From the NCBI RefSeq assembly GCF_000337675.1, contig NZ_AOIB01000028.1:311481-375480 (forward strand): DNA of 64,000 bases, given 5' to 3'. Shown piece after piece: positions 29,953-47,361 of this stretch. Each line of letters opens with the position of its first letter. The first letter of the stretch is position 1. Source of the stretch: Natronococcus amylolyticus DSM 10524 (GTDB lineage Archaea; Halobacteriota; Halobacteria; Halobacteriales; Natrialbaceae). The notes beneath the pieces were generated by a model that saw only the letters and a list, made by a program, of their open reading frames with translations, was not told the DNA's origin and did not search any database. A program made the position numbers and the translations under genes.

Positions 29953-30603
29953 TTATGATCCGAAATGGTATTCGAAGAGCTTTGCCCTAATTTTTCGAAG
30001 GTGGGAGGACAGCGTGGAGGGAGAAATATCGAGTGCAGCGGCAACTTCCTCAGCACTAGCTCCTCCTGTCTCAAAATACCGCATTTCTGTGGCAGTACGA
30101 GCGACCTCTCGTTGCCGATCAGTTAGTCGTAGTCCTCCTCCATCTTCGGTATTTGCTTGGGCGCTGACATCCCTGCTGAACACTTTCTTCAGGTGGCACT
30201 CGATGTCTTCACCGTGACAGTACGCGAGGAATTCTTCGAAGTGACTGCGCTCCGAGGCGTGAACCCGAACCTGCCAACCACCGTCTACACCGGTTGCATC
30301 CATGAACCGTAACCCGGATTCTGTAAATGGCAGAATTTTTGTCTCATCGGAAAACCCAATTTTATAGATTCGAGACTCGGTAACCTCAGCGTTGACTTCC
30401 CAGTCAACTACGGTATGATCGGACCTCAGTGACGATTCGAACTGGTCGAAGTCGGGGGTCTGAACCAGATAGAACAACATGAGGGTGTCTGTAGGGGTTG
30501 TCGTTTGGGATTCAACACGAATGTCAAGGTTTTCGACCTCCTCCAGAGTCGTCGTCAACGATAAGTCAGAATGGCGCACGACCATCTCACCAATATGACT
30601 CAT
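29953..30603 (-). CDS. Bat-type (HTH-10) transcription regulator
   Basis: 216 aa. The N-terminal ~140 residues form the variable sensor-like domain; the C-terminal HTH-10 reads LRLTDRQREVARTATEMRYF, ETGGASAEEVAAALDISPST, LSSHLRKIRAKLFEY. It is upstream of the HalOD1 gene with about 100 bases between, so the two may share a transcript. The target is unknown. Confidence 0.85.
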   Translation of the reverse strand: MSHIGEMVVRHSDLSLTTTLEEVENLDIRVESQTTTPTDTLMLFYLVQTPDFDQFESSLRSDHTVVDWEVNAEVTESRIYKIGFSDETKILPFTESGLRFMDATGVDGGWQVRVHASERSHFEEFLAYCHGEDIECHLKKVFSRDVSAQANTEDGGGLRLTDRQREVARTATEMRYFETGGASAEEVAAALDISPSTLSSHLRKIRAKLFEYHFGS

Positions 30604-31739: not shown

Positions 31740-32399
31740 TTACCGCTCAATTGTGGTTTGCCGATACTGATCGCGAGTGGCACGCTCGTGTGGATTCATC
31801 AACGCTGAGGACAACAACGCTTGCTCGGCCTTTCGTAGGTGTTCATGCAGTGTTGCACGACTGATCTCGAGTTCCTCGGCAAGTTCCTCGTTCGTTATTT
31901 TTCGCGGCCAGTCGTAATACCCACGAGCTAAGGCCTCACTGGCGACTTCGTGTTGTCGTGTAGTTAGCAGCGAATCCGAATTCGCTCTGAACTCCTCGAG
32001 ACGACCAAGCGTTACCGTTCCGAACTCTTCTAAATCTTCGAGGATATTTTTGAGATCGGCGCGCTGAAAGACGAGAACGTTGTATTCTCTTTGCCGACCT
32101 GAAACCGTATTCGATCGCCGTAGCGTTCCGTGGTTTTTGTAGATAGCAGAATATGCCCCACAGGAGGGCTTGGTGACCAGCAAATTTCCGTCATCGAGCC
32201 GTTTTACATGCCGAACGTGGTCTGCAGCCTCGAGTTCGGCTTGAAAGTTGTCTGCGTGGGGCCCAGCTTGGAGAACAAACGTGACGACACCATTCTGAAT
32301 TTCTTCAATTTCAATCGGGACTGGATCGCTAATGTCGGCTGTAAGCCGTCGAAGGATGCACTCTCGATGCTGCGTGAAATGGAGCGTCGCAGTAAACAT
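31740..32399 (-). CDS. Bat-type (HTH-10) regulator divergent from hyuAB
   Basis: 219 aa. Sensor-like N-terminus, then HTH-10: LLTTRQHEVASEALARGYYD, WPRKITNEELAEELEISRAT, LHEHLRKAEQALLSS. It is divergent from hyuA with 154 bases between, which contain two dyads, so it is the likely controller of the hydantoinase operon. The sensed ligand is unknown. Confidence 0.85.
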   Translation of the reverse strand: MFTATLHFTQHRECILRRLTADISDPVPIEIEEIQNGVVTFVLQAGPHADNFQAELEAADHVRHVKRLDDGNLLVTKPSCGAYSAIYKNHGTLRRSNTVSGRQREYNVLVFQRADLKNILEDLEEFGTVTLGRLEEFRANSDSLLTTRQHEVASEALARGYYDWPRKITNEELAEELEISRATLHEHLRKAEQALLSSALMNPHERATRDQYRQTTIER

Positions 32400-32467: not shown

Positions 32468-32511
32468 GATTCCCCGCGGTATATAATTGGCCAACAGCTG
32501 TTGGGGGAATC
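32468..32511 (+). promoter_or_regulatory. hyuA promoter with nested dyads
   Basis: The TATA box tatataat is at 32480-32487. Flanking it, gattcccc (32468-32475) is inverted at ggggaatc (32504-32511). A perfect 14 bp palindrome ccaacagctgttgg lies at 32491-32504, just before the expected transcription start (about 32510). Both could be operators for the divergent HTH-10 regulator. Confidence 0.5.
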
Positions 32512-32553
32512 CTTACTCCCCGATCTGCTATCTAGCACACTGTGCGATAACAT

Positions 32554-34617
32554 ATGTCATACAATATTGGCGTCGACGTCGGTGGGACGTTCACGGACGT
32601 TATCGTCTTCGACGAAGATACCCATGAACTGACCATAGACAAGGTTCTCTCCACACCTAAAAACCCCTCTGAGGGTGTTGTTCATGGGATTGCGGAAGCG
32701 ACGACGAAAGCAGACACGTCGTTATCCGAAGTCGAGCTGTTGTTTCATGGCACAACGGTCGTGACGAATATGCTTCTCGAGGAGACAGGCGCTCGCGTCG
32801 GTCTCATCACCACTGCCGGTCACACGGATATTCTCCATCTGGCACGGGCGTGGACACCCGGGCCGCTGTATGGGTGGATGGGTATGGAGAAACCGGAGCC
32901 ACTCGCAGATCTCGTCGACACGCGAGGGGTTGCTGGGACTATTGATTCGCCAACGGGCGAGGAAGTAGAACCGCTTGACGAGGCCGCAGTCCGGGAAGCT
33001 GTTCGTGAACTCGAGGCAGCTGGCGTCGAGTCGGTAACGGTTGCACTGCTGAATTCGTACCTCAATCCAGCCCAAGAGGAACGTGTCCGCGAAATCGTCT
33101 CCGAGGAAGCCCCGGAGCTTCCGGTTTCGATTTCATCCGAGATCGTCCCAGAGTACGGCGAATACGAACGAACGCTCACGACGGTTATCAACGACTATGC
33201 GCGCCCAACGGTCATCGGATATCTCGAGGATCTCGATAACTCACTCGCCGATGCTGGGTCGACGGCGACGATGAATATTGTCCGCTCGGACGGCGGGCTG
33301 ATGAGCTCCAAGGCTGCCAAGGAACGACCAGTCGAACTCGCGCTCTCGGGACCCAGCGGCGGTGTCGTTGGCGCTGCGGCCATTGCCACGAAGAAAGGAA
33401 CACCGGACGTCTTGACGCTCGATATGGGCGGAACCTCGACTGACGTTTCGCTCGTTGAAAGCGGGACGGCCGAAACAACGCGGCAAACAAAGGTCGGCTA
33501 TCGAGAGTTTACGTCACGGTCGGTCGACGTGAACACCGTCGGAGCCGGCGGTGGTTCTATCGCGCGCGTCCAGCTAAACGGAGCGTTACAGGTCGGTCCA
33601 GAAAGCGCCGGTGCCGATCCCGGCCCAGCCTGTTACGGACAGGGTGGCGAGCAACCGACTGTTACAGATGCGAACGTCGTCCTCGGCCGTATTCCACCGA
33701 GTGTTCAACTCGGCGGCCGGATGGAACTCGACAGACAGGCTGCTCGTGACGCCGTCGCGACGGTTGCCGACGACCGCGGTAGCACGGTTGAGGAAGCCGC
33801 ACAAGCCATTCTCGATATCGTCAACGAGAATATGCACGGTGCACTCCGTGTCGTGTCCGTTGAACGCGGGTATGATCCTCGAGAGTTTGGGTTGGTGGCA
33901 TTCGGTGGCGCCGGGCCGATGCATGCCAACGCACTTGCAGATGTGATGGATGCGTATCCGCTAATCGTCCCACCGGGTCCGGGAGTGATGTCCGCGTTCG
34001 GATTTCTCACATCCGATATTCAAAACGAGTTCTCTGAGACCTATCTGGAGACCGAAGAGGACATTACCGGCGAAGACGTCTACGAGAAACTCCACGACCT
34101 CAAGGGCGAAGCGGGATCGTGGCTGGCTTCCGAAGGCGTCGACGAAGATGCTCACTCGTTCGATTATTTCGCGGAGTGTCGGTACTTCCGCCAGGACATC
34201 CAGATGTCGATTCCAGTCACGATCGACAATCTTCGAAGCGAGGCCGGTCTTGCAGAAATCAAGAACGACTTCGAGGCCCGCCACGACCGGCAGTTCGGAT
34301 TCTCACTCGATGCACCCCTCGAGATCGCGAATCTCCGAGTCATCGGAAAGGGGACCGTACAGGGCGTGACCATCGAAGAGGAGGAGCTCACAGCATCCGA
34401 TCCGAGTGACGCTGTAATCGATTCGAACGACGTGTATTTCGACGGCGACAACTACGAGACCCCAGTGTACGACCGAGCACGACTCCGACCAGGTAACGAG
34501 ATTGAGGGACCTGCGGTCGTCACCGATAACGACTCGACGGTCGTCGTCCAGCCGGACCATCGCGCGACGATCGACCGCTACGGAAACATCGAAATCAATC
34601 GAGGTGAGGACCAATGA
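32554..34617 (+). CDS. hyuA: Hydantoinase/oxoprolinase subunit A (ATP-dependent)
   Basis: 687 aa. The N-terminus YNIGVDVGGTFTDVIVFD is the actin-fold ATP-binding loop; later hallmarks are LLFHGTTVVTNMLLEETGAR, LDMGGTSTDVSLVESG, GAGGGSIARV, GADPGPACYGQGG and GLVAFGGAGPMHANALAD. HyuA with HyuB opens cyclic amides (5-oxoproline, hydantoins, N-methylhydantoin) at the cost of ATP. The specificity is not readable from sequence. It overlaps hyuB by four bases. Confidence 0.92.
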   Translation: MSYNIGVDVGGTFTDVIVFDEDTHELTIDKVLSTPKNPSEGVVHGIAEATTKADTSLSEVELLFHGTTVVTNMLLEETGARVGLITTAGHTDILHLARAWTPGPLYGWMGMEKPEPLADLVDTRGVAGTIDSPTGEEVEPLDEAAVREAVRELEAAGVESVTVALLNSYLNPAQEERVREIVSEEAPELPVSISSEIVPEYGEYERTLTTVINDYARPTVIGYLEDLDNSLADAGSTATMNIVRSDGGLMSSKAAKERPVELALSGPSGGVVGAAAIATKKGTPDVLTLDMGGTSTDVSLVESGTAETTRQTKVGYREFTSRSVDVNTVGAGGGSIARVQLNGALQVGPESAGADPGPACYGQGGEQPTVTDANVVLGRIPPSVQLGGRMELDRQAARDAVATVADDRGSTVEEAAQAILDIVNENMHGALRVVSVERGYDPREFGLVAFGGAGPMHANALADVMDAYPLIVPPGPGVMSAFGFLTSDIQNEFSETYLETEEDITGEDVYEKLHDLKGEAGSWLASEGVDEDAHSFDYFAECRYFRQDIQMSIPVTIDNLRSEAGLAEIKNDFEARHDRQFGFSLDAPLEIANLRVIGKGTVQGVTIEEEELTASDPSDAVIDSNDVYFDGDNYETPVYDRARLRPGNEIEGPAVVTDNDSTVVVQPDHRATIDRYGNIEINRGEDQ

Positions 34618-36470
34618 GTGATTCACAACCAGATTTTGTCGGCGAACACGACATCGACCAGACGACACTCGACATCATCGAAAGCACGCTTTCGAACACC
34701 CGCTACGAGATGGATCGAGTCGTCGAGACGACGGCGATCAGTCCGGTAATCCGTGAACAGTCCGATCAGTTTCCGCTGATCGCAGACGCGAAGGGTCGGA
34801 TGGTCATGGGCCAGTTTGGCTCGGCCATCGACACGATTCTCGAGAATTCCGCGTTCGAGCGCGAGGATCTCGAGGACGGTGACGTGATCGCAACTAACGA
34901 TCCCTACATGTGTGCTGGGGCCGTCTCGCATACCCCAGATATGCTCCTGTTGCGTCCGATCTTCTACGAGGATGATCTGATCGGCTTCTCGAGTCAGTGG
35001 GGGAACCTGATGGACGTCGGTGGGAAGACACCCGGTAGCATGCCCGTCCAGGCAGGGACGATCTTCGAGGAGGGGATGCGCTTGCCACCGGTCAAACTCT
35101 ACAAGCAAGGCGAATTCGATAGCGAACTCCTCCAAACGTTCGCGCACAACACTCGACTCCCGAACCACGCGGAAGCAGATATCAAGGCGCTTGCAGCGGG
35201 GACGAAAGCTGCCGAAACTCGAGTCCACGAACTCTGTGATCGGTTTGGCAAGGAGACGTACGTGGAAGCGTGTGACGCCATTCTCGATCGTACCCGTGAT
35301 GGGATGATCGACCTGATCCACGAGTTCATTCCCGAGGGAGAGCGCTACACGTTCGCGGATTACGTCGACGACGACGGCATGGGGAACGGTCCAATCAAGC
35401 TCCACCTCGAAATCTACCGGGAGGGAGAAACGGTGTACCTCGATTGGACCGGAACCGACGAGCAGGTACCGGGAACGGTGAACTTCCTCCTGAACGAGCA
35501 GATGTTCAAGATGTTCACCGGGGTCTTTCTAATCATGGCATTCGATCCCTTGCTCACGTTCAACGACGGCTACTACGACCTCTTCGACGTAACACTACCG
35601 GAGGGATCGGTCGTTCAGCCGGAGTTCCCGGCAGCGCTCGGGAATCGGTTACCGATGATGGCTCGCCAGTTCGACGTGCTCCAGGCAACATTCTCGAAGC
35701 TCATCGACGACTTCTCCGTCGCGGGGAGCTACGGAACGTCACCAAATCTCGTCTACGCGGGAACTGACTCCGAAGGTAACGACTTCCAGATGCTCGAGAT
35801 CTTGTACGGAGGAATTCCTGCTCGACCGGGCGGCGACGGTCTCGACGGCCACTCCTGGTGGCCGCTGTTCCGTACCGTTCCGGCGGAGTATCAGGAGGCC
35901 TACTACCCGTTGACTATCGACGAGTACAGTACCCGAACAGACACCGGTGGCGCTGGCGAATTCCGTGGCGGTCACGGTATCACGAAGGTCTACACCTTCG
36001 AGGAGGACGGAGCGATAACCTTCCAGGACGATCGTGCACACACCTATCCGTGGGGTGTCGACGGCGGGCAGCACGGCCAGACGAGCGAAAAGAAGCTGAT
36101 TCGGACCGACGGGACGGAAGAAGAGCTCCCGTCGAAAGTCGAAAACGTCGCCGTACAGGCGGGTGACAAGCTCGTCTTTAGCACCGCCGGTGGTGGCGGA
36201 CTCGGTGATCCCGTAGAACGTGATCCCGACGTCGTTGCTACGGAAGTCGAACGAGGGCTCATCTCCGAAGTCACGGCACGTGAAGAGTACGGCGTCGTTC
36301 TCGACGACGATGGGGCGGTTGAGACTACCGCGACGGAGGAACGGCGCAATGAAATACGATCGAACCGTGACGAACCCGACGCGTTCGACTACGGTCCGTT
36401 GCCGGACAACGAGACACTCGAAGCGCAGATCGCAAACGAGCGCCGAGAGTTTGCCAACCGAGACAACTGA
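34614..36470 (+). CDS. hyuB: Hydantoinase/oxoprolinase subunit B
   Basis: 618 aa. Family features are VVETTAISPVIREQSDQFPL, ATNDPYMCAGAVSHTPDMLL, MPVQAGTIFEEGMRLPPVKL, the FRGGHGITKVY region and TAGGGGLGDPVERDPDVV near the C-terminus. It is the partner of HyuA in ATP-dependent cyclic-amide hydrolysis and starts within the hyuA stop codon. An isochorismatase-family gene follows after 26 bases. Confidence 0.92.
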   Translation: MSDSQPDFVGEHDIDQTTLDIIESTLSNTRYEMDRVVETTAISPVIREQSDQFPLIADAKGRMVMGQFGSAIDTILENSAFEREDLEDGDVIATNDPYMCAGAVSHTPDMLLLRPIFYEDDLIGFSSQWGNLMDVGGKTPGSMPVQAGTIFEEGMRLPPVKLYKQGEFDSELLQTFAHNTRLPNHAEADIKALAAGTKAAETRVHELCDRFGKETYVEACDAILDRTRDGMIDLIHEFIPEGERYTFADYVDDDGMGNGPIKLHLEIYREGETVYLDWTGTDEQVPGTVNFLLNEQMFKMFTGVFLIMAFDPLLTFNDGYYDLFDVTLPEGSVVQPEFPAALGNRLPMMARQFDVLQATFSKLIDDFSVAGSYGTSPNLVYAGTDSEGNDFQMLEILYGGIPARPGGDGLDGHSWWPLFRTVPAEYQEAYYPLTIDEYSTRTDTGGAGEFRGGHGITKVYTFEEDGAITFQDDRAHTYPWGVDGGQHGQTSEKKLIRTDGTEEELPSKVENVAVQAGDKLVFSTAGGGGLGDPVERDPDVVATEVERGLISEVTAREEYGVVLDDDGAVETTATEERRNEIRSNRDEPDAFDYGPLPDNETLEAQIANERREFANRDN

Positions 36471-36496
36471 ACGACACCTACTTCCACTACATCATC

Positions 36497-37141
36497 ATGG
36501 ACTGGCTCCACGACATCGATATCGACTACGACGACTCAGAGTTTGGTGCGAGTGTCGGTATTGGTGACCAACCCGCATTGGTTGTCATCGATCTCATAAA
36601 TGCCTTCACCGATCCCGAAACGAGTCTCGGCTCGGACGTAACTGACGTTCTCGAGCAGAGTTCTCGGCTACTTGAGGCCTTCCGCGAGCACAACTTACCT
36701 CGGTACTTCACGACTGTCGCGTTCGAGGAGTCCTACGGTGATGCCGGTCGGTTCATCGAGAAGGTTCCTGCACTCAAAGAACTACAGCTTGGCACCGAAG
36801 CAGTTGAAGTCGACAATCAGGTCGCCCCGGTGGACGATGAACGAGTGATCCTGAAGAAGTACGCCAGTGCCTTTTACGGGACTGACTTACAAACCGAACT
36901 GACGACAGACCGTGTCGATACACTTGTCCTCGCCGGTGTAACGACGAGTGGCTGTATCCGTGCAACGGCCGTCGACAGTCTCCAACACGGTTACCGGACT
37001 ATCGTCCCTTCGGATGCAGTCGGTGACCGTGCCGAAGGACCACATCGAGCCAATCTCTATGATATCGATACGAAGTATGGCGATGTTGTTACTACAGATA
37101 CCGTACTCGAACACCTCTCCAACAATGAAGAAGAAAACTAA
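36497..37141 (+). CDS. Isochorismatase-family amidohydrolase (N-carbamoylsarcosine amidase-like)
   Basis: 214 aa cysteine hydrolase. The catalytic triad is readable: Asp32 in LVVIDLINAF, Lys120/121 in VILKKYASAF, and Cys153 in VTTSGCIRATAVD with the usual cis-peptide Val-Thr-Thr. Family members hydrolyse N-carbamoylsarcosine, maleamate, nicotinamide or isochorismate. Being directly behind hyuAB, removal of a carbamoyl group from the opened hydantoin ring is the most likely job (inference). Maleamate amidase is an alternative. Confidence 0.87.
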   Translation: MDWLHDIDIDYDDSEFGASVGIGDQPALVVIDLINAFTDPETSLGSDVTDVLEQSSRLLEAFREHNLPRYFTTVAFEESYGDAGRFIEKVPALKELQLGTEAVEVDNQVAPVDDERVILKKYASAFYGTDLQTELTTDRVDTLVLAGVTTSGCIRATAVDSLQHGYRTIVPSDAVGDRAEGPHRANLYDIDTKYGDVVTTDTVLEHLSNNEEEN

Positions 37142-37195
37142 CAATGAACAGACTGTATCGACGCTACCTTACCGACTTCGATCAGGTGATCGACG

Positions 37196-38143
37196 ATGAC
37201 TGAGTCCGGTGCAATACTCCGAGAGCACCTCAATCGTGACGAGATCTTAGCCTGTCCGGGCGTGCACGACCCGCTTACAGCCGGTGTTGCTGACGCCGTC
37301 GGCTTCGATGCGATATACATGACCGGATACGGAACCTCCCTATCGAAGACGGGCTATCCTGATGCCGGCTTTATTACGATGCCGGAGATGATCAGCAACG
37401 CTGCAAATATTCAGGAGCGTATCGACGTCCCACTGATCGCCGATGCCGATAACGGGTACGGAAACGCAACAAACGTCGTCCGAACGGTTCGAGAGTACAT
37501 CAAGGCCGGCGTCGGCGCGATCCATATCGAAGATCAGACCTTCCCGAAACGGTGTGGTCATACGAAAGGCCGGCAGGTCATTCCGCGAGACGAGGCAGTT
37601 GGAAAGATCGAAGCTGCAGCTGACGTACGAGACGACCGTGGTGAAGACTTCGTCCTCATTGCTCGGACGGACGCTCGCGGTACCGGGGACGGATCACTCG
37701 ACGAGGCGATCGGTCGCGCTAACGATTTTCTCGAGGCTGGGGCCGACATCGCATTCGTCGAGGGACCGACCGATGAATCGGAACTCGAACGTATCGGCCA
37801 GGAGGTCAACGGACCACTCGTCTACAATTTCGTCGGCGATCTCGGCTCCTCACCGTACGTTGAACTCTCCGTACTCCAAGAGTTAGGATTCGATCTCGTG
37901 TTGTTCCCAATCGCCGCGACACTCTCAACGATTGCAAACGTGTACGCTGACTTCAGCGCCTTCGCAGAGGATCCAGTTGCAGCAATGCGAGCCATCGATG
38001 ATACGTTCAATTCTCAACCGATCGGTAGTCTCCACGAGTTTTCTGGGTTTCCAGAAGTTGTTGAGTGGGAACAGCAGTATCTCCCCGATGACGAACAAGA
38101 GAAGTACGAGGGATCACTGGGAGACGAGCTCGAATCCGAATAG
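37196..38143 (+). CDS. Isocitrate lyase / PEP mutase superfamily enzyme
   Basis: 315 aa TIM barrel. The metal-binding DADNGYGN and active-site loop FPKRCGHTKGR (Cys120-Gly-His) are typical of the PEPM/ICL superfamily, close to oxaloacetate decarboxylase, 2,3-dimethylmalate lyase and methylisocitrate-lyase-like members. It cleaves C-C or C-P bonds of alpha-oxy-carboxylates. It is the last gene of the hyu cluster (54 bases after the amidase). The substrate is unknown; a dimethylmalate-lyase-like step would give pyruvate plus propionate. Confidence 0.85.
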   Translation: MTESGAILREHLNRDEILACPGVHDPLTAGVADAVGFDAIYMTGYGTSLSKTGYPDAGFITMPEMISNAANIQERIDVPLIADADNGYGNATNVVRTVREYIKAGVGAIHIEDQTFPKRCGHTKGRQVIPRDEAVGKIEAAADVRDDRGEDFVLIARTDARGTGDGSLDEAIGRANDFLEAGADIAFVEGPTDESELERIGQEVNGPLVYNFVGDLGSSPYVELSVLQELGFDLVLFPIAATLSTIANVYADFSAFAEDPVAAMRAIDDTFNSQPIGSLHEFSGFPEVVEWEQQYLPDDEQEKYEGSLGDELESE

Positions 38144-38177: not shown

Positions 38178-38975
38178 TTATCTTTCAAGATAGCGGCTCA
38201 GTACTGCGGCAAGCACCATTATTACAACAAGTACTGTTGAGAGAGCGTTGATCTCGGGGGTGAGTCCAGTACGGAGCATATCGTAGATCTCGACCGGAAC
38301 AGTACTGGTTCCAGGTGCAATGAGAAACTGTGTGGCAGTGAACTCGCCGAATGAGACAATAAATGCAATAAACAACCCAGAGAGCAAGGCCGGTGAAATG
38401 ATGGGGGCAGTGACGTTCGTGAACGTCATTGTCGGATCAGCGCCGAGAACACGAGAGGCTTTCTCGAGATCGTTATCGAATGTTACGAGTTCTGAGCGCA
38501 CGAGCAAAAAGACGTACGGAACGCCCAGGATAGAGTGACCGATGATGAGCGTTGGATAGCCGGCATTGACGTTGATCTGCCCGAAGTAGCGGATCAGAGC
38601 GATTCCCGTAATCACAGGAGAGATGATCATCGGCAACAGCATGATCGTCGAAAGCTGCTGTTTGTAGGGGAACTCCGCACGGACAAAACCAATAGCCGCA
38701 ATGGTTCCAAAGATGACCGCAATAATCGCTGCACCCGTTGCGACGACAAAACTCGTAAAGAGCGCGCCAAGCAGCTGGCTGTCGGTCATCAATGCAACGT
38801 ACCACTGCAGACTAATACCATCGTACGGGATCGCGGGAAATGCTCGTCCGGTAAAGGAAGTCAGAACGACCATCGCGACTGGCACAAGCAAGAAGACGTA
38901 GATCAGCAAGATAGTGCCTAGTAACACGCCACGGCGCAGCAGCCCTGTCTGCTTGAGAGATCCAACTGCGCTCAT
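38178..38975 (-). CDS. ABC transporter permease (PotC-like)
   Basis: 265 aa with six membrane helices. The cytoplasmic coupling loop ASRVLGADPTMTFTNVTAPI (EAA-type motif) binds the ATPase. Sequence style and position match the second permease of polyamine/opine-type importers. Its start overlaps the previous permease by four bases. It is convergent with the hyu cluster, 34 bases from the end of the lyase gene. Confidence 0.88.
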   Translation of the reverse strand: MSAVGSLKQTGLLRRGVLLGTILLIYVFLLVPVAMVVLTSFTGRAFPAIPYDGISLQWYVALMTDSQLLGALFTSFVVATGAAIIAVIFGTIAAIGFVRAEFPYKQQLSTIMLLPMIISPVITGIALIRYFGQINVNAGYPTLIIGHSILGVPYVFLLVRSELVTFDNDLEKASRVLGADPTMTFTNVTAPIISPALLSGLFIAFIVSFGEFTATQFLIAPGTSTVPVEIYDMLRTGLTPEINALSTVLVVIMVLAAVLSRYLER

Positions 38976-39820
38976 AGGTTACCAAGCGCCTCCTGAAGAT
39001 CGAACACGGCATTGAATATCGCGATAAACCCGATTAGCAGGATCGTATAGATCACTGCTAATGCTGATGCGAGTTGGATATTAAACGCCTCAAGGAATGC
39101 GCGGGCAATTTCGTTGGCGATCATTGACTGTCCCGATCCGCCAAGGATGTCTGGGCCGAGGAACGATCCTGCCGAGAGGATGAACACGATTACTCCGGCA
39201 GCGACGACACCTGGCATGCTCAACGGAAGGACAACCGAATAGATCGTTCGCAACTGGCCAGCGCCAAGGGTCCGGGAAGCGTTGATCGTCTCATGGTGTA
39301 TTGCGTTGAGCGAATTGTAGATTGGGAGGACGGCAAACGGAAGATAGGCGTTGGCCAGTCCAATGATTACCGCTGTTGTCGTAAACAGTAAGTCCGTTTC
39401 AATACCGAATGACTGTGCGAGCGGACCGGTCGGTGAGAAAAACAAGAGCACCCCGAAGTAACGGATGATGTATGCGATCCATAGCGGAACAACCACTAAC
39501 GTCAACAGGAGACGAACGCGTTTGCTCGAGAACACGAGATAGTACGCAAGGGCGTACGCCAACGCAAGTGTCACCAGCGTCGTTACGATTCCGTAGAGGA
39601 ACGAACGAACAAAAGCGGCGAGATAGACGCCACCCATGGCACGCTGATAGGCCTGAAGTGGGTGCCCATCGCCGAAGTTGATACTCTCAACAACTAGGAA
39701 GAGGACTGGAAACACGAAAAAGAACGTGACCCAACCGACACCGATAGCTACGAGGTGGCGATTGGTTATCCGATCGCTGAGCCAGCTCGGAACGGGGCTG
39801 CGTTCGACGACAACGCTCAT
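38972..39820 (-). CDS. ABC transporter permease (PotB-like)
   Basis: 282 aa, six helices. The coupling loop is ASRTLGAGQLRTIYSVVLPL, and SMPGVVAAGVIVFILSAGSF follows, as in PotB-like permeases. ATGA overlaps on both sides tie it to the ATPase gene and the second permease gene. Confidence 0.88.
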   Translation of the reverse strand: MSVVVERSPVPSWLSDRITNRHLVAIGVGWVTFFFVFPVLFLVVESINFGDGHPLQAYQRAMGGVYLAAFVRSFLYGIVTTLVTLALAYALAYYLVFSSKRVRLLLTLVVVPLWIAYIIRYFGVLLFFSPTGPLAQSFGIETDLLFTTTAVIIGLANAYLPFAVLPIYNSLNAIHHETINASRTLGAGQLRTIYSVVLPLSMPGVVAAGVIVFILSAGSFLGPDILGGSGQSMIANEIARAFLEAFNIQLASALAVIYTILLIGFIAIFNAVFDLQEALGNL

Positions 39821-40896
39821 AGAACGATCACCGATTCTGAGTCGAACGTGACGAGTACTTCATCACCGACCTCAAGATGCGGGAAACGATTTGTACTCGC
39901 AAGAGCGGTTTCGCCACTTTCGAGGGTAGCTGTGACCTCAGCCCGATTACCGAGATTTGAAACTTTTTCAATCGTCCCTGGAAACGCGTTCTCTTCAGTC
40001 GCAGCTACAGTCGTTGCGCCACCGTCAGCTGTTGCCTGTGCTGCCTCGATATTGACATCCTCTGGGCGAACATACAACGAGACTTCTTCTCGATCACTGC
40101 TAACACTATCATTTGGAAGAACAACACAGGTATCGCCGGCATCTACGAAGGGTCTCGGCCCATCGTTTCTAATCGGTCCACTGAACTGCATCGACTTTCC
40201 GACAAACTCCGCGACAAAGTCGTTTACTGGTTGTTCGTAGATAGCCTGTGGATGATCGACTTGCTGGATTTCCCCATCATCAAGGACGACGACTTTGTCA
40301 GACATCGACAGCGCATCCTCTTGATCATGTGTAACGTACAATGAGGTCACTCCCAACTCTCGCTGAAGCGTCATGAGCCACTGTCGCATCTCTTCTCGGA
40401 GAACTCGGTCGAGCCCGGTCAGCGGCTCGTCGAGCAGTAAAATATCGGGTTCGTAGGCAAGTGCCCGAGCTAACGAGACGCGCTGTTGCTGTCCTCCTGA
40501 GAGTTCGCCAGGGCGATGATCATCGTGATTGGGAAGATCAACGAGTTCGAGAAATTCTTGTACTCGTGCATGACGTTCTTCCTCATCGTACCCGTGCATA
40601 CGAAGTCCATATGCGATGTTCTCCCGAACAGTCATATGGGGAAAGAGGGCAGTACTCTGAAAGGCCATCCCGATGTTTCGCTCTTCCGGGGGTAGGTTAG
40701 TGACATTCTCGCTCCGTAATGTCACCTCTCCTTCCGTTGGCTCTCTGAGACCCGCAATCATGTGCAACAGCGTTGTCTTTCCACAGCCAGACGGGCCTAG
40801 CAGAGTGACGAATTCACCCTCATCGATACGGAAACCGACGTCGTTGACGGCGCACAAGTCGCCGTAATACTTTGTAAGTCCGTTGACTTCTAACAT
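39817..40896 (-). CDS. ABC transporter ATPase (PotA-like)
   Basis: 359 aa from MLEVNGLTKYYGDL. Walker A GPSGCGKTTLLH, Q-loop MAFQST, signature LSGGQQQRVSLARALAYEPD, Walker B ILLLDEPLTGLD, and a H-loop YVTHDQEDALSM. The C-terminal part is a TOBE domain (LYVRPEDVNIEA...ALASTNRFPHLEVGDEVLV). It energises import through the two permeases. The longest frame starts further upstream, but that stretch is the spacer behind the binding-protein gene. Confidence 0.9.
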   Translation of the reverse strand: MLEVNGLTKYYGDLCAVNDVGFRIDEGEFVTLLGPSGCGKTTLLHMIAGLREPTEGEVTLRSENVTNLPPEERNIGMAFQSTALFPHMTVRENIAYGLRMHGYDEEERHARVQEFLELVDLPNHDDHRPGELSGGQQQRVSLARALAYEPDILLLDEPLTGLDRVLREEMRQWLMTLQRELGVTSLYVTHDQEDALSMSDKVVVLDDGEIQQVDHPQAIYEQPVNDFVAEFVGKSMQFSGPIRNDGPRPFVDAGDTCVVLPNDSVSSDREEVSLYVRPEDVNIEAAQATADGGATTVAATEENAFPGTIEKVSNLGNRAEVTATLESGETALASTNRFPHLEVGDEVLVTFDSESVIVL

Positions 40897-40928
40897 CGTT
40901 AAAATTTGTATTGGTAGTATTATTATGG

Positions 40929-41993
40929 TTAGCTCTGCTGTACTTCCTGGAAGCGCTCCGACCACTCGTCTTGAACTGGGAGAATTCGGGACCAGTCATT
41001 GAAGCTCAACTCATCGATGGGCGCATAATCTGGGAGTTCTGTCATCTCCTCAGGGGGATCCTCCACCTGTACTGTATAATTCATGTCATCCGACATCTGG
41101 AGGATATTATCTCGCTCGTAGGTGAAATTCAATAAGTCGTGAATGAGATCTCGGTTTTCCGTTTCTTGGACAATTGATAGTGTGTCAGTCCACGCCATCG
41201 TTCCCTCTTCGGGGAGAACGTACTCGATGTGCTCATGGCCGTCTTCTTGTAGCGCAATAACACGACCACCCCATGCCTCACAGATGTGGGCGTTCTCCTG
41301 GCGTAGATACTGGATTGAGGTGTCTCCGTCAGACCAGTAACTAAAAGCGTTCTCGTTTTGTTCTTCAGCTTCTTCGATTACCTCTTCGAAGAGATCCTCG
41401 TCCTCTGCGGCTTCGTTGATATCAACGTCGATCGCAGCAGCACAGTTCGAAAACCGATCGACTGCTCGGTCGAGTAGTGCAACCTGTCCCTCGTACTGTG
41501 GATCTTTAATTTCCTCCCAACTAGTGAGTTCTTCGTCAACAAGTTCAGTGTTGTACGCATACCCAGTTGCCCCGTTTTCTCGAATCAGGCCGATCGTCTC
41601 ACCATCATCGAGTAGAAAGTCGAGTTCCTGTGCATCGTCGCGGATGTTGTCTGTATAATTCGGCACTTCATCGAGGTCAATCGGTTCAAGAACACCTTCG
41701 TCTTGCCCCTGGGCCATTCCAGTATCATTGAGTGCGACGATGTCATATTCCCCTGTGTTTTGTTGAATCTGGGAGATCATCTCAACCGTCCCTCCAGCGG
41801 AGTCACCCTCAATTTCGACATCCTCCTCTTCTGCCCACGCGTCAAAAATTCGCTCCTGTGCTTCCTGTGTATTTCCACCGAACCCGAGGAAGCGAAGCGT
41901 ACCACCACCACCATTCATGCCGCCCATACAACCCGCGAGGCTTACGACTGATCCTGCTCCGAGTGTAGCCAGTGCGCTGCGCCGAGTCACCAT
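40929..41993 (-). CDS. ABC substrate-binding lipoprotein (PotD-like)
   Basis: 354 aa from MVTRRSALATLGAGSV. The twin-arginine signal with lipobox (VSLAGCMGG) predicts Tat export and lipid anchoring at Cys. The mature part reads GTLRFLGFGGNTQEAQERIF and YDIVALNDTGMAQGQ, the style of polyamine/putrescine-type binding proteins. The acidic mature surface fits a halophile. It is the first gene of the four-gene importer operon; the location next to hyuAB suggests that a nitrogenous substrate is imported. Confidence 0.88.
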   Translation of the reverse strand: MVTRRSALATLGAGSVVSLAGCMGGMNGGGGTLRFLGFGGNTQEAQERIFDAWAEEEDVEIEGDSAGGTVEMISQIQQNTGEYDIVALNDTGMAQGQDEGVLEPIDLDEVPNYTDNIRDDAQELDFLLDDGETIGLIRENGATGYAYNTELVDEELTSWEEIKDPQYEGQVALLDRAVDRFSNCAAAIDVDINEAAEDEDLFEEVIEEAEEQNENAFSYWSDGDTSIQYLRQENAHICEAWGGRVIALQEDGHEHIEYVLPEEGTMAWTDTLSIVQETENRDLIHDLLNFTYERDNILQMSDDMNYTVQVEDPPEEMTELPDYAPIDELSFNDWSRILPVQDEWSERFQEVQQS

Positions 41994-42172
41994 GTTACTA
42001 CCTTCCATGGACCTTTCTCTACATTCTATGGTATGGTATAATAGTGTTCCGGTGAGTCCGAATTAAGAAGTATAATTTAGGAAAATCTCCGAAATGCCTA
42101 AGTCAGATAGGGACAATTATAATAGCTACGCGCCTCGCCGTGAAGATTGGTGGGCGTCATACGAGACAACAC

Positions 42173-42994
42173 ATGACCTGTACCGAGGATCGAAGAGTGG
42201 AAACTGTCGAACCGGCATCGACCGAAACTGTCGACTACCGAGTCGACGACAACGTCGCGTACGTCACGCTGACACGCTCGGATCGGCTCAACGCCGTTAC
42301 AAAGGAACTATATGCGGGCGTTCAAGGTGCTCTCAAGCGGGCGAGTGAGGACGATGCCCGCGTGATAGTACTTGAGGGCGAAGGCCGTGCTTTCTGTGTT
42401 GGCGCAGATCTGAAAGACCACGACGAACGCGAACGAACTGCTGCAGAGAAACGCGAGTACGCTTGGACTGCTCAACGAACCTGTGAGGCAATCCAGACCC
42501 ATGAGCGACCAGTTATTGTCAAGATCCAAGGATATGCTATCGGTGCTGGCGCAGAGATGGCACTTAGTGCAGATCTCATCGTAATGGCGACACAAGCAGA
42601 AATACGGTTCCCGGAAACATCTATTGGAACCTACGTTGGTGGTGGTGTTACGGATACACTGCCTGAACGCGTCGGAACCGCGAAAGCAAAGGAGCTATTG
42701 CTCACTGCAGCCTCACTAGACGGAGCCGAGGCTGCCGAGATCGGACTCGTAAATGAGGTTGTCCCGGACGACAAGTTGGACGACGCCGTCAACAACCTGG
42801 CAACTGAGATTGCCAACAACGCCCCGATTCCAATTGCTTTCGCGAAAAAACAACTGAATCAGCAACCAGCTGACCGTGAGCTGATACTGACTGCAGAAGT
42901 CGATGCACTCCTAACATGTATGGAAACCGCCGACTGGCAGGAAGGCATCGACGCGTTCGCCGAGGAGCGCGAGCCAGTCTTCGAGGGGCGATAA
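42173..42994 (+). CDS. Enoyl-CoA hydratase/isomerase family protein
   Basis: 273 aa from MTCTEDRRVETVEP (the 11 upstream codons are not conserved-looking). Crotonase fold: VAYVTLTRSDRLNAVTKELY, oxyanion GRAFCVGADLKDH and IKIQGYAIGAGAEMALSADL with the Gly-Gly-type turn, then EIRFPETSIGTYVGGGVT and the Glu region. It could hydrate, isomerise or hydrolyse a CoA thioester. It is the first gene of an operon with acd (2 bases away), another crotonase gene and a nitrilase gene. Confidence 0.88.
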   Translation: MTCTEDRRVETVEPASTETVDYRVDDNVAYVTLTRSDRLNAVTKELYAGVQGALKRASEDDARVIVLEGEGRAFCVGADLKDHDERERTAAEKREYAWTAQRTCEAIQTHERPVIVKIQGYAIGAGAEMALSADLIVMATQAEIRFPETSIGTYVGGGVTDTLPERVGTAKAKELLLTAASLDGAEAAEIGLVNEVVPDDKLDDAVNNLATEIANNAPIPIAFAKKQLNQQPADRELILTAEVDALLTCMETADWQEGIDAFAEEREPVFEGR

Positions 42995-42996
42995 CG

Positions 42997-45177
42997 ATGC
43001 GGAAAACTATCGACCGTATCCTCGAACCCGAGACAATCGCAGTCGTCGGTGCCTCCACTGATCCAAGCAAGCGCGGGCACCAGGCTATCAAAACTCTACA
43101 AGAGGGAGGTTTCGAGGGAACCGTCTACCCTGTCAACCCAAGCGCAGAAACAATTCGAGGTCTCAGTGTTTGTTCCTCCATTTCCGAGATTCCAGAGCCT
43201 GTTGATCTGGCACTGATTGTTGTCCCCAAACAGGTCGTTCCATCAGTCCTGGAAGAGTGTCGCGACATCGATGTCGCGGGAGCAGTCGTCATTGCTGTTG
43301 GTTTCGGTGAGACCGGCGACGAAGGGGAAGAACTCGAGGAAGATATTATCCATATTGCCCGACAAAACAATGTCCGTCTGGTAGGTCCAAATACTTCCGG
43401 ACTGATCAACGTTCACGAGGGAGCCAACCTCGTAGGAGCCGACAATGTACCTGCCGGCGAACTCGGTTTGCTCTGCCAAAGTGGAAACCTCGCAATTGCA
43501 TTATTCACCGAAGCCGCCGCTCTCGAAGGAGTCGGCTTCAGTCACTACGTCGGAGTCGGCAATGAAGCTGACCTCCAATTCCACGAGTACTTGCCGTACT
43601 TCGCCGATAACGACAAAGCTGATGCGATTGTCTGTTATGTCGAGGGGTTGGCTGATGGACGTGCCTTCCTTCAAGAGGCTCACGAAACTGTCCCCGAGAC
43701 ACCGATCGTCGTTTGCAAAAGCGGACGATCCGCAGTTGGGAAACAATCTGCGAATTCTCATACGGGATCGCTGGCCGGCGATGCAGCCGTAGCCGACGCT
43801 GTCTTCAGCCAAGCTGGTGTCATCAGCGTTGATCGATCGGACGAGCTACTTGCGGTTTCCGACGCACTCGCCTCCCAGCCACCGATGGACGACGCGAACA
43901 TTGCAATCCTCGCTGACGGCGGCGGGCACGCGACACTTGCTGCAGACGCATTGGCCGCCCGTGATCTCTCCGTCCCTGAACTGGAGGCAGGGACCAAAGA
44001 CCGTCTTCGTGAAGTTCTTCCTGACGCAGCAAGCGTCCGAAACCCAGTTGACGTCGCCGGCGGTACTGACGATGACCCCTCGGTATTCGCTGATTGTGCC
44101 GAGGCGCTATTCGATGATCCGAACGTCGATGGCGTGTTGCTTTCTGGACTATTCGGTGGCTACGGCATCCGATTTACTGACGATCTCGAGCCGATCGAGA
44201 AAGCGGCCGCACGAGATATCGTCACCTTTGCTGAGGATACCGATACACCACTGGTAGTTCAGAGCGCCTATGAGAGTGCTGACCCCGAGGTCCATACGAT
44301 TCTGCGCGAGAGCGATGTCCCAGTTTACGAGTCACTTGATCTTTCGGTCGCCTGTCTCTCTGCACTTGCGGAATACGGCACTCATCTGAAGACTACAGAC
44401 GAGAGGGACAGTTTCAACCTTGAAGAAGGTGAACGAACCATAGATCCGGCTGAGGCGACCAACGGCACGCTTACTGAGTACGATGCGAAGAAGGTACTCG
44501 ATCAGTACGATGCACCGGTGACACCGTACGAACTGGTCGAGACGCCGATGGAAGCGAAGCGTGCCGCAGTTGAGTTCGATGCGCCAGTCGCGATGAAGGC
44601 TGTTTCACCTGACATCGTTCACAAAACCGAAGCCGATGCGGTCGCCCTTGAGGTTACAGAGGATGCCGATGACGTTTTCCAGGACCTGGTTGAGAACGCA
44701 CGCACATATGACCCACAAGCGCGGATCGATGGCGTTCTCGTTTCCCCGATGCGTACTGACGGCATCGAGGTGATTGTCGGGGCGACTAGCGACGAGCAGT
44801 TCGGGCCCGTCGTCATGTTTGGTCTTGGTGGCGTCTTCGTTGAGGTCTTCGAGGATGTCGCCTTCCGTGCTGCGCCGCTCTCCAAAAGCGATGCGCGGTC
44901 GATGATCGAGGAGATCGATGCCCAGCCACTACTCAATGGAACACGGGGTGGGTCATCGGTTGACCAGGAAGCGTTAGTCGATGTACTCTGTACTGTCTCG
45001 GATCTCGTCGTTGATAATCCCGTGGTCGAAGAAGTAGACCTGAATCCCGTGCTCGCAGCCGAAGACGGAGTAGAAATTCTCGACGCAAGTATTCTTTTGT
45101 CGAATGAAAGCCAAACTACGACCCACACAATGGAGTCAGAAAATGAGGTCATTTCGGATGGAGGTGACAACGAATGA
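42997..45177 (+). CDS. acd: ADP-forming acyl-CoA synthetase (alpha-beta fusion)
   Basis: 726 aa from MRKTIDRILEPETIAVVGAS. The order is: CoA-binding Rossmann domain (1-~130), succinyl-CoA ligase-like domains with the phosphohistidine loop (SANSHTGSLAGDAAVADAV), and a C-terminal ATP-grasp (TEYDAKKVLDQYDAPVTPYE, VAMKAVSPDIVHKTEADAV, VMFGLGGVFVEVFEDVAF, DLNPVLA). It interconverts acyl-CoA + ADP + Pi and acid + CoA + ATP, so here it likely gains ATP from the CoA ester formed by the flanking crotonases. ATGA overlap with the next gene. Confidence 0.92.
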   Translation: MRKTIDRILEPETIAVVGASTDPSKRGHQAIKTLQEGGFEGTVYPVNPSAETIRGLSVCSSISEIPEPVDLALIVVPKQVVPSVLEECRDIDVAGAVVIAVGFGETGDEGEELEEDIIHIARQNNVRLVGPNTSGLINVHEGANLVGADNVPAGELGLLCQSGNLAIALFTEAAALEGVGFSHYVGVGNEADLQFHEYLPYFADNDKADAIVCYVEGLADGRAFLQEAHETVPETPIVVCKSGRSAVGKQSANSHTGSLAGDAAVADAVFSQAGVISVDRSDELLAVSDALASQPPMDDANIAILADGGGHATLAADALAARDLSVPELEAGTKDRLREVLPDAASVRNPVDVAGGTDDDPSVFADCAEALFDDPNVDGVLLSGLFGGYGIRFTDDLEPIEKAAARDIVTFAEDTDTPLVVQSAYESADPEVHTILRESDVPVYESLDLSVACLSALAEYGTHLKTTDERDSFNLEEGERTIDPAEATNGTLTEYDAKKVLDQYDAPVTPYELVETPMEAKRAAVEFDAPVAMKAVSPDIVHKTEADAVALEVTEDADDVFQDLVENARTYDPQARIDGVLVSPMRTDGIEVIVGATSDEQFGPVVMFGLGGVFVEVFEDVAFRAAPLSKSDARSMIEEIDAQPLLNGTRGGSSVDQEALVDVLCTVSDLVVDNPVVEEVDLNPVLAAEDGVEILDASILLSNESQTTTHTMESENEVISDGGDNE

Positions 45178-45983
45178 GTGACCGTGAATCGGTAGATGAG
45201 CCCGTCTGTGTTGAGCATCCACGTGAACACGTTGCCCGCGTTACGCTCGATCGACCGGATGCACTGAACGCTTACAACGAATCGCTCCTGCGGACACTCG
45301 TCGATCGGCTCGAGGGACTCGACTCCGATCAGGATGTCCGGGCGATCGTTCTGACTGGTGCTGGTGATCGTGCGTTTTGCAGCGGTGTCGATCTCGAGAA
45401 TATGCCGCTTACTCCAGAGATGGAATTTGCCGAATACGAGGAGGGGCTCGGATTGTTCCAGAACGTTGTCCGAACCTTACGAACGATCGAAACACCGGTC
45501 GTCGGCGCGGTGAATGGCTACGCACTCGGCGCTGGCTGTGACACTGCCCTTGCCTGTGATATTCGTATCGTCAGTGAGGAGGCCACTATCGGTGAAACGT
45601 TCATCGATGTCGGCTTCGTTCCTGGAGATGGCGGTGCCTATCTCCTTCCTCGGCTCATCGGGGAGTCTCGAGCAAAAGAGCTGATTTTCACTGGTCGGAA
45701 ACTTGAGGGAGAAGAAATCGTCGAATGGGACCTTGCCCGCGAGTGTGTTCCGCAGGGAGAGTTACTCGAGGCTGCTGAAGACTTCGCTGCCGACCTCGCT
45801 TCCCAGCCACCGGTTGCCCTCGGCCTGAGTAAGACGCTCGTCGGGGAGAGTCTCGATGTCGACCTTGAAACCGCATTTGATCAGGCCACTCGCGCCCAGC
45901 GGATCTGTTCACAGACTGATGATCACGCAGAAGCAGTCGCCGCGTTCAACGAGAAACGAGATCCGGAGTTCACGGGAGAATGA
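45174..45983 (+). CDS. Enoyl-CoA hydratase/isomerase family protein
   Basis: 269 aa crotonase. VARVTLDRPDALNAYNESLL, GDRAFCSGVDLENM (oxyanion), VNGYALGAGCDTALACDIRI, and GETFIDVGFVPGDGGAYLLP (the Glu position carries the Gly-Asp-Gly-like turn). It is overlapped at both ends by acd and the nitrilase gene (four bases each). Two different crotonases around one CoA synthetase suggest successive steps on the same acyl chain. Confidence 0.88.
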   Translation: MSDRESVDEPVCVEHPREHVARVTLDRPDALNAYNESLLRTLVDRLEGLDSDQDVRAIVLTGAGDRAFCSGVDLENMPLTPEMEFAEYEEGLGLFQNVVRTLRTIETPVVGAVNGYALGAGCDTALACDIRIVSEEATIGETFIDVGFVPGDGGAYLLPRLIGESRAKELIFTGRKLEGEEIVEWDLARECVPQGELLEAAEDFAADLASQPPVALGLSKTLVGESLDVDLETAFDQATRAQRICSQTDDHAEAVAAFNEKRDPEFTGE

Positions 45984-46777
45984 GCCTTGAAACAATCACA
46001 TTAGTACAGTTCGATTCATCGATCGGCCCCGCCGAAGATGGGACGCTCGAACGAATGTGTGCGCACATTCGAGCTGCGGATGTTGATCTAATCGTCTTCC
46101 CCGAGCTCGCGACGACTGGCTACTCTATCTTTGATCAGATCGAGAAATGTGCCGAGCCGATACCAGGTCCTACCACTCGTATACTTGGCCAAGCGGCTGC
46201 TGAGTCGAATACTCACGTTCTCCTGGGAATGCCTGTTCAGGGCCAGAACCGCGTCCATAACAGTGCGATATGGATTGACCGCCAAGGCAAGGTGCGTATT
46301 CAGTATGACAAGCGGCAGTTGTGGGGTGACGAATGCAACGTATTTACTCCGGGTGAGGATCTCGTTGTAGTTGACTGTGAAGGACTCTCAGTAGGAATTC
46401 AGATCTGTTATGATCTGAATTTCCCTGAGCAAGCAGCTGCCTTTGCCCGCGCTGAGGTGGATCTTTTGGTGAACATCTCGGCGTGGTCTGAGCCGATGAA
46501 AGGTGATTGGGACCGGCTACTGCCTGCCCGTGCGATTGAGACCGGGGCATTCGTTCTTGGCTGTAACCATGCCGGAGACGAAGGAGACCTCATGTTTTAC
46601 GGCCATAGCACTGTATATAATCCGGACGGATCAGTAAACAGGCGACTTAAGAACGAGCCCGATGCAATCACCTGGCAATTCGAAGAGAAACTGCTCACGC
46701 AGGAACGCAAACGAAACCCAATGCGCGAGGATAGGCGTGAAGACGGACCAGGAATTGAACGCATTCAGGTTGAGTGA
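45980..46777 (+). CDS. Nitrilase-superfamily amidohydrolase
   Basis: 265 aa carbon-nitrogen hydrolase. The catalytic Glu42 (VFPELATTGY), Lys111 (YDKRQLWGDE) and Cys143 (GIQICYDLNFPE) triad is complete. Members hydrolyse nitriles, amides or N-carbamoyl compounds. It lies downstream of the acyl-CoA genes with an ATGA overlap, so it may remove ammonia or a carbamoyl group from the same substrate. Confidence 0.9.
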   Translation: MSLETITLVQFDSSIGPAEDGTLERMCAHIRAADVDLIVFPELATTGYSIFDQIEKCAEPIPGPTTRILGQAAAESNTHVLLGMPVQGQNRVHNSAIWIDRQGKVRIQYDKRQLWGDECNVFTPGEDLVVVDCEGLSVGIQICYDLNFPEQAAAFARAEVDLLVNISAWSEPMKGDWDRLLPARAIETGAFVLGCNHAGDEGDLMFYGHSTVYNPDGSVNRRLKNEPDAITWQFEEKLLTQERKRNPMREDRREDGPGIERIQVE

Positions 46778-46833
46778 ACTGGAGTACCAAGAATCGTAGT
46801 GGGGATCACCCATCCTACATACAACAAAAGCAA

Positions 46834-47361
46834 ATGACGAACTTAACACTTGACGAAACTGACTTTCGGCTCTTGAAAGCACTTGACGAGAACGGCGATG
46901 TCGATGCCGATGAAATTGCAGACGAACTGGACATCAGCCAATCAACGGTATACTATCGTCTAGAAAAATACCGCGAAAAGGGAATCATCACTGACACGGT
47001 TGCCCATCTTGACCGTCACAAACTCGGCCTTGGGATGACTGCTATTACTCGGATCAAGACCGTCTATGGGCCGGAAGCGATGGAAGTCGGCAAAAGAATC
47101 CAGGAACTCTCAGGTGTTCAGCAGGTGTATTCTATGCTCGGAGAAATGTCGTTCTGCGTCATCTCTCATGTTAGGGACCATGAACATCTTCAGGGGCTTG
47201 TTGAGAAGATTATCGAGACAGAAGGTGTTCAGAACTCAGAAACGAATATTGTGCTCCGGACGTTCAAAGAGGAGCCACGGTTGCTGGTCAACTACGATGA
47301 TGCTGATCTCGAGAAATTGTTCGCTTATACTGCTGACGATAAGTCATCGATCTCGGACTAA
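46834..47361 (+). CDS. Lrp/AsnC-family regulator
   Basis: 175 aa from MTNLTLDETDFRLLKAL. The N-terminal HTH is ADEIADELDISQSTVYYRLE; the C-terminal RAM-like domain begins LGLGMTAITRIKTV and contains VYSMLGEMSFCVI. The ending (RLLVNYDDADLEKLFAYTAD) is longer than in short Lrp proteins. Such regulators bind small amino-acid-like effectors as multimers. Last gene of the operon, 56 bases after the nitrilase gene, suggesting autoregulation of the cluster. Confidence 0.88.
   Translation: MTNLTLDETDFRLLKALDENGDVDADEIADELDISQSTVYYRLEKYREKGIITDTVAHLDRHKLGLGMTAITRIKTVYGPEAMEVGKRIQELSGVQQVYSMLGEMSFCVISHVRDHEHLQGLVEKIIETEGVQNSETNIVLRTFKEEPRLLVNYDDADLEKLFAYTADDKSSISD

Follow-up and report, generated by a model that had tools for sequence, protein, structure and literature searches.

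Which ring is opened by the enzymes of a four-gene block in the haloarchaeon Natronococcus amylolyticus DSM 10524, and what becomes of its carbon? The block lies in a stretch of 64,000 nucleotides (contig NZ_AOIB01000028.1, positions 311,481 to 375,480), which is here called the window; coordinates below count from its first letter. It encodes the two subunits of a HyuAB-type hydrolase, a cysteine amidase of the isochorismatase superfamily and a C-C lyase of the phosphoenolpyruvate (PEP) mutase family. An earlier note on this DNA had suggested the degradation of N-methylhydantoin or a similar cyclic ureide, adding that the lyase might point to a different, carbon-branched ring. That last remark is supported and came nearer the mark than N-methylhydantoin. 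The operon is proposed here to break down a carbon-branched cyclic imide, leading to a 2-alkylmalate, with a probability of roughly one half. The substrate and every catalytic step are predictions, which build on the observed gene content, conservation, phylogeny, active-site residues and operator conservation.

Gene content and conservation of the block

The four open reading frames were recovered with the positions and families that the earlier note had assigned to them:

32554–34617, + strand: HyuA, predicted subunit A of an ATP-dependent cyclic amide/imide hydrolase (PF05378/PF01968/PF19278; module clade support 100/100)
34614–36470, + strand: HyuB, predicted subunit B of the same hydrolase (PF02538, 1.2e-135; 85–92% identity among haloarchaeal copies)
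36497–37141, + strand: isochorismatase-superfamily cysteine amidase, predicted alkylmaleamate amidase (PF00857, 5.3e-37; PDB neighbors 26st, 4l07, 1nba and 3ot4; signature residues)
37196–38143, + strand: PEP-mutase/isocitrate-lyase superfamily C-C lyase, predicted 2-alkylmalate (citramalate-type) lyase (PF13714, 2.6e-48; KRCGH motif; PDB match 3fa3; recurs with HyuAB and amidase)

The Hydant_A_N, Hydantoinase_A (E = 1.8e-92), Hydant_A_C and Hydantoinase_B domains are all complete in HyuA and HyuB. By domain content the pair belongs to the ATP-dependent hydrolase family, and ring hydrolysis itself is predicted. Since HyuB starts within the last 4 bp of HyuA and the remaining gaps measure just 26 bp (HyuB to amidase) and 54 bp (amidase to lyase), a single transcript is likely, and the four genes likely form one operon. 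The picture of one operon that combines a predicted ATP-dependent ring hydrolase, a cysteine amidase related to N-carbamoylsarcosine amidase at the superfamily level and a C-C lyase, all under a local regulator, is thus supported.

The arrangement is not due to chance, as it recurs across haloarchaeal genomes. Across 125 genomes of the family, the amidase has 20 close orthologues, the window's included (76–86% identity; the next match reaches 47%). HyuA, HyuB, amidase and PEP-type lyase follow each other in this order in 11 of these 20, that is in the window and in 10 further genomes (79–92% identity). Another eight contain HyuA-HyuB-amidase without the PEP-type lyase, with a coenzyme A (CoA)-transferase III and/or a LeuA-type enzyme encoded nearby; Haloterrigena alkaliphila, Haladaptatus and Halogranum are among the carriers of this form. 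In a congener the amidase is accompanied by LeuCD-type genes, a CoA-transferase and a LeuA-type enzyme, and HyuAB is missing. A class-wide search yielded 12 more HyuAB-amidase-lyase blocks (73–91% identity), so that about two dozen haloarchaeal loci are known overall. Annotated plasmids carry the block too, in Natronomonas pharaonis and Halorientalis marina, and because several copies are plasmid-borne it behaves as an accessory element. The block is real and conserved, and the operon that it appears to form is probably locally regulated and catabolic.

The ring opener and the amidase

In creatinine degradation, N-methylhydantoinase (HyuAB) is combined with N-carbamoylsarcosine amidase, as in cshA-hyuB of C. 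glutamicum (PMC8864220; PDB 7hk5 and 1nba). The likeness to the window's block is evident: an ATP-dependent ring opener of the HyuAB type is followed by a cysteine amidase of the isochorismatase superfamily, with the chemistry in the same order. If the block followed this route, HyuAB would generate N-carbamoylsarcosine and the amidase would split it to sarcosine. The best PDB matches also lie there, namely N-methylhydantoinase 7hk5 (1.3e-138) and N-carbamoylsarcosine amidohydrolase 26st/1nba.

The phylogeny of the ring opener speaks otherwise. A HyuA profile search of named genomes gave 80 loci (Actinomycetota, Pseudomonadota, Chloroflexota, Acidobacteriota and others), which were pooled with the annotated plasmids. 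The window's HyuA falls in a clade of split HyuA proteins (support 100/100), whose members come from archaea, Rubrobacter, Geobacillus, Chloroflexota, Acidobacteriota, Actinomycetota and Pseudomonadota. N-methylhydantoinase 7hk5 stands outside this module clade, together with the loci L152 and L055 (the latter divergent), and 5-oxoprolinase 6yra branches further out still. Forcing the haloarchaeal HyuA together with 7hk5 and L152 was rejected in the approximately unbiased (AU) test (p 2.26e-66), as was forcing it together with 6yra (AU p 9.87e-66). The HyuA comparison proposed in the earlier note therefore revealed no clustering with 5-oxoprolinases.

The same results bear on a lactam hydrolase operon, acting on 5-oxoproline, caprolactam or a hydroxylactam. 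HyuAB enzymes do open lactams, and caprolactamase CapAB is the best curated family match of the pair. However, CapA and CapB (NCBIfam NF050156/NF050157) score 523.4 and 218.2 bits, far under their 1000-bit cut-offs, and both the substrate and the gene neighbors of caprolactamase differ. A lactam would moreover yield an amino acid, so that the conserved amidase would find no primary amide to act on. Such an operon is quite unlikely.

What a genuine pair of the creatinine type may look like is illustrated by L152, where a fused HyuAB of 1291 amino acids from the 7hk5 clade precedes an amidase of the 1nba clade. Lyase, hydratase and CoA-transferase genes are all absent from the surroundings of this real-looking N-methylhydantoinase/N-carbamoylsarcosine amidase pair. 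The window's HyuAB, in contrast, is split, belongs to a different clade and is joined by a C-C lyase, for which the creatinine route has no place. Genes for creatininase, deiminase or sarcosine oxidase were found neither in the block nor in its conserved copies. Sarcosine-oxidase-like proteins occur elsewhere in the genome, below the family cut-off (soxA); family searches for sarcosine oxidase and creatininase were uninformative, both families being common in haloarchaea.

At L055 (Natribaculum breve), HyuAB belongs to the N-methylhydantoinase clade (37% identity to the window's), and its neighbors are a lyase and an amidase with 64% and 43% identity, respectively, to those of the window. The same set of functions seems to have been put together independently there, around another branch of HyuAB.

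In the amidase, the catalytic triad consists of D32, K120 and C153. Positions 150, 151, 156, 183 and 185 are T, S, A, H and A in nearly all of the 82 module-side amidases, and the same residues are found in 3ot4, 4l07 and 26st. The 1nba clade instead displays A or M at the first of these positions, A at the second (S in one member), H at the third (A in one member), V, I or T at the fourth and W at the fifth; the window's T150, A156, H183 and A185 are unlike the residues of 1nba, L152 and one further locus. As 3ot4/3uao (NicF) and 4l07 (Ami) are maleamate amidases, the triad and the residues around the cysteine mark the window's enzyme as maleamate-amidase-type, with a predicted activity to match. 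Maleamate amidases release ammonia from the monoamide of a cis-butenedioic acid. Superfamily, triad and signature residues are thus common to the window's amidase and to the enzymes of nicotinate and nicotine catabolism. The origin of the amide differs: there, maleamate derives from N-formylmaleamate after cleavage of the pyridine ring, whereas in the proposed route it would come from a ring opened by HyuAB. A quick tree placed 3ot4 inside the bacterial module amidases, and in a more careful tree the deep branches were not resolved. Because of this, and of the AU test discussed below, the maleamate-type membership is based on residues and context and not on the tree alone. The amidase comparison suggested in the earlier note hence separates the enzyme from N-carbamoylsarcosine amidase by its residues, while the tree does not reject their grouping. 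With HyuA firmly outside the N-methylhydantoinase clade and an amidase of the maleamate type, N-methylhydantoin is not upheld as the substrate: the creatinine route is the wrong explanation for HyuAB, an unlikely one for the amidase and a highly improbable one for the block as a whole.

Interchangeable lyases and the proposed route

The lyase has 2,3-dimethylmalate lyase 3fa3 as its best PDB match (5.5e-50), and KRCGH, a form of the catalytic motif K(K/R)CGH, is kept in the lyase alignment. For methylisocitrate lyase PrpB (TIGR02317) it scores 228.2 bits, below the curated cut-off of 354.4.

Across 88 HyuA loci, the amidase is present in 62, CoA-transferase III in 58, an enzyme of the 3-hydroxy-3-methylglutaryl-CoA (HMG-CoA) lyase type in 53 and a PEP-type lyase in 10. 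Of the 62 amidase loci, 43 combine CoA-transferase III with an HMG-CoA-lyase- or LeuA-type lyase, seven contain the PEP-type lyase, one has both and 11 have neither (a locus whose PEP-type lyase is cut by the contig end being counted among the last). The PEP-type lyase and the pair of CoA-transferase and lyase are mutually exclusive (Fisher test, 4e-4 over the 62 loci, ignoring kinship), and the lyase type changes eight times on the HyuA tree. Mutual exclusion and repeated swapping suggest that both lyase types perform the same last step. The PEP-type lyases were recruited more than once, as their sequences come from several branches.

The alternative lyase belongs to the LeuA/citramalate-synthase family in haloarchaea (2.5e-77) and to the HMG-CoA-lyase family in bacteria. 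Malate-type acids are the substrates of PEP-mutase-family lyases, enzymes of the LeuA family condense acetyl-CoA with 2-oxo acids, and one of the relatives of HMG-CoA lyase is (R)-citramalyl-CoA lyase. A substrate common to all three could be a 2-alkylmalate, in its simplest form citramalate. Both (R)-citramalyl-CoA lyase (EC 4.1.3.46) and succinyl-CoA:(R)-citramalate CoA-transferase (EC 2.8.3.20) are known enzymes (PMC8307300), and the CoA-dependent form of the module is predicted to use the same CoA transfer and retro-Claisen cleavage. Coupling to ring hydrolysis is not known in that system, and the window's operon differs in having a CoA-free lyase.

A six-membered glutarimide might instead be converted to 3-hydroxy-3-methylglutarate and cleaved as HMG-CoA. 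This would agree with the family of the bacterial lyase and with the nearest solved relative of the CoA-transferase, succinate–hydroxymethylglutarate CoA-transferase (6e-59). The archaeal PEP-mutase- and LeuA-type lyases, however, need a malate-type substrate and could not cleave 3-hydroxy-3-methylglutarate, which makes a glutarimide very unlikely.

The swapping lyases also weigh on the ureide of the earlier note. Here HyuAB and a carbamoyl hydrolase would convert a substituted hydantoin, an allantoin-like or a pyrimidine-derived ring to a branched amino or hydroxy acid, to be cut by the lyase. HyuAB enzymes and this amidase superfamily are known to act on ureides, and other haloarchaeal amidases of the superfamily occur in five loci with dihydropyrimidinase or Zn-hydrolase. 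An amino acid product would be expected, yet the block has neither a conserved aminotransferase nor a conserved deaminase, and the conserved last steps all suit hydroxy-dicarboxylates of the malate type rather than ureide-derived amino acids. A ureide is consequently an unlikely substrate.

The cyclic-imide route calls for a hydratase between amidase and lyase. Complete sets of HyuAB, amidase, PEP-type lyase, LeuC and LeuD were found at two loci, and the Geobacillus plasmid pGYMC5201 contains amidase-HyuAB-CoA-transferase-HMG-CoA lyase-LeuC-LeuD. LeuCD-type genes lie beside the amidase at these and five further loci. Their position fits an alkylmaleate as precursor; an amidase making alkylmaleate would in turn start from an alkylmaleamate, which points to a maleimide-type ring. 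LeuCD as an obligatory neighbor is not supported (10 of the 62 amidase loci, Fisher p 0.5).

The simplest substrate would be a 3-alkylmaleimide, for example methylmaleimide (citraconimide), or its hydrated form. In the first step, HyuAB would spend ATP to open the ring, yielding an alkylmaleamate. Alkyl- and dialkylmaleamates re-close readily, which would explain the expense of ATP. The amidase would then free ammonia and generate an alkylmaleate of the citraconate type, to which a LeuCD-type hydratase would add water, giving a 2-alkylmalate of the citramalate type. In the window's genome this third step would have to be performed by the housekeeping isopropylmalate isomerase or aconitase, or the ring may already be hydroxylated. 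Finally, the PEP-mutase-family lyase would cut the free 2-alkylmalate to a 2-oxo acid (pyruvate) and acetate. In other lineages the CoA ester would be formed by CoA-transferase III and cleaved by the HMG-CoA-lyase- or LeuA-type enzyme, the latter running backwards from 2-alkylmalyl-CoA to the 2-oxo acid and acetyl-CoA.

The end of this route resembles the nicotinate fermentation of Eubacterium barkeri, which ends with dimethylmaleate hydratase (LeuCD type) and 2,3-dimethylmalate lyase (PEP-mutase family). In both, hydration of an alkylmaleate would precede a cleavage to pyruvate and a fatty acid. The E. barkeri pathway, in contrast, contains neither HyuAB nor the amidase and reaches dimethylmaleate by a B12-dependent carbon rearrangement.

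Several points weigh against the imide route. No HyuAB enzyme is known to act on a maleimide. Grouping of the haloarchaeal amidase with N-carbamoylsarcosine amidase 1nba is not rejected (AU p 0.39), and the closest solved amidase, 26st (44% identical), bears the name N-carbamoylsarcosine amidohydrolase. The Fisher value for the exclusion of lyases carries no kinship correction. LeuCD genes are not enriched at the amidase loci, a dedicated hydratase was not found elsewhere in the window's genome, and the block-carrying Natrialbaceae mostly hold just housekeeping aconitase/LeuC relatives, which leaves the hydration step weak in this genome. Orphan lyases (81–88% identical) occur in four genomes with no HyuAB, amidase or palindrome (described below) nearby. 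A strict dependence of the lyase on HyuAB is hence not supported, and the lyase has uses without it.

PEP-type lyases 53–64% identical to the window's occur at three loci with LeuC, LeuD and MmgE/PrpD, in two cases with a CoA-transferase and in none with HyuAB. These clusters are apparently a nitrogen-free version of the pathway end.

A literature search found no paper that describes this gene combination or pathway, and one on citraconimide/methylmaleimide and on maleamate amidase with isochorismatase returned nothing relevant. The enzyme families themselves are known. If the imide route is true, imide hydrolysis would join the known HyuAB reactions, a large HyuAB group now annotated just as hydantoinase/oxoprolinase would gain a function, and two unrelated lyase solutions would have been swapped repeatedly within one pathway. 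Related gene sets are found in many bacterial phyla. A multi-phylum, ATP-dependent cyclic-imide pathway, in which carbon is recovered via reversed leucine/citramalate-type chemistry by interchangeable CoA-dependent and CoA-free lyases from, for example, alkylmaleimides of oxidized chlorophyll, haem and bilins, is a tentative and rather improbable extension, and deriving the substrate from tetrapyrroles is speculative.

The predicted operator and neighboring genes

Upstream of HyuA, the following elements were found:

31740–32399, − strand: transcriptional regulator of the HTH_10 ('Bat') type, predicted to control the operon locally (PF04967 HTH_10, 8.5e-20)
32480–32486, + strand: TATA box (TATATAA) of the HyuA promoter, conserved in 22 aligned Bat-HyuA intergenic regions
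32491–32504, + strand: 14-bp perfect palindrome CCAACAGCTGTTGG, predicted operator; CCAACNNNTGTTGG is conserved in 22/22 aligned regions
32504–32521, + strand: second conserved element GGGGAATCCTTACTCCCC, an imperfect inverted repeat next to the palindrome (same alignment)

The earlier note had coupled a Bat regulator to the block. A divergent HTH_10 regulator indeed adjoins HyuA, here and in nearly all haloarchaeal copies of the PEP-lyase type, but the domain search detected HTH_10 alone and no BAT domain. A second regulator further upstream (29953–30603, minus strand) contains both BAT and HTH_10 domains.

Apart from the TATA box, CCAACNNNTGTTGG and GGGGAATCCTTACTCCCC, the 22 intergenic regions are poorly conserved. 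CCAACNNNTGTTGG lies four bases past the TATA box. Within the window the palindrome matches nowhere else, against an expectation of 0.11 sites when one mismatch is allowed. Each of the nine block-carrying genomes searched has exactly one site, and three genomes without a complete block have none. Its location between the TATA box and the expected transcription start suggests repression: the HTH_10 regulator would sit on the palindrome and repress the operon until induced. With one site per genome, the predicted regulator-operator pair is tightly defined and of use to haloarchaeal genetics.

A polyamine-type importer (38178–42008), which the earlier note saw facing the block, is present and convergent to it. 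It belongs, however, to a nine-gene divergent unit (38178–47361) with the order SBP-PotA-PotB-PotC / ECH1-ACS(ADP-forming)-ECH2-nitrilase-Lrp, SBP being the substrate-binding protein. This order is kept in six other loci examined in genomes of the family; where a genome has both, the unit and HyuAB are on different contigs or far apart. SBP and nitrilase lie ~5 kb apart in eight other genomes. As SBP-PotABC travels with the ECH-ACS-ECH-nitrilase-Lrp genes at other genomic places, the importer was rejected as part of the HyuAB system. Genomes with the nine-gene unit are enriched for the HyuAB/lyase block (Fisher test, 1.4e-5, ignoring kinship).

In 23 bacterial loci a TonB-dependent receptor is encoded near the HyuAB module, which suggests that Gram-negative hosts take up a substrate that is larger or scarce. 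Three haloarchaeal clusters combine dihydropyrimidinase with a distant amidase and CoA-transferase III; the accompanying genes vary and are aconitase-like, HMG-CoA-lyase-like or of the PEP-type lyase kind. These clusters may represent a relative of the pathway in which the ring is opened without ATP.

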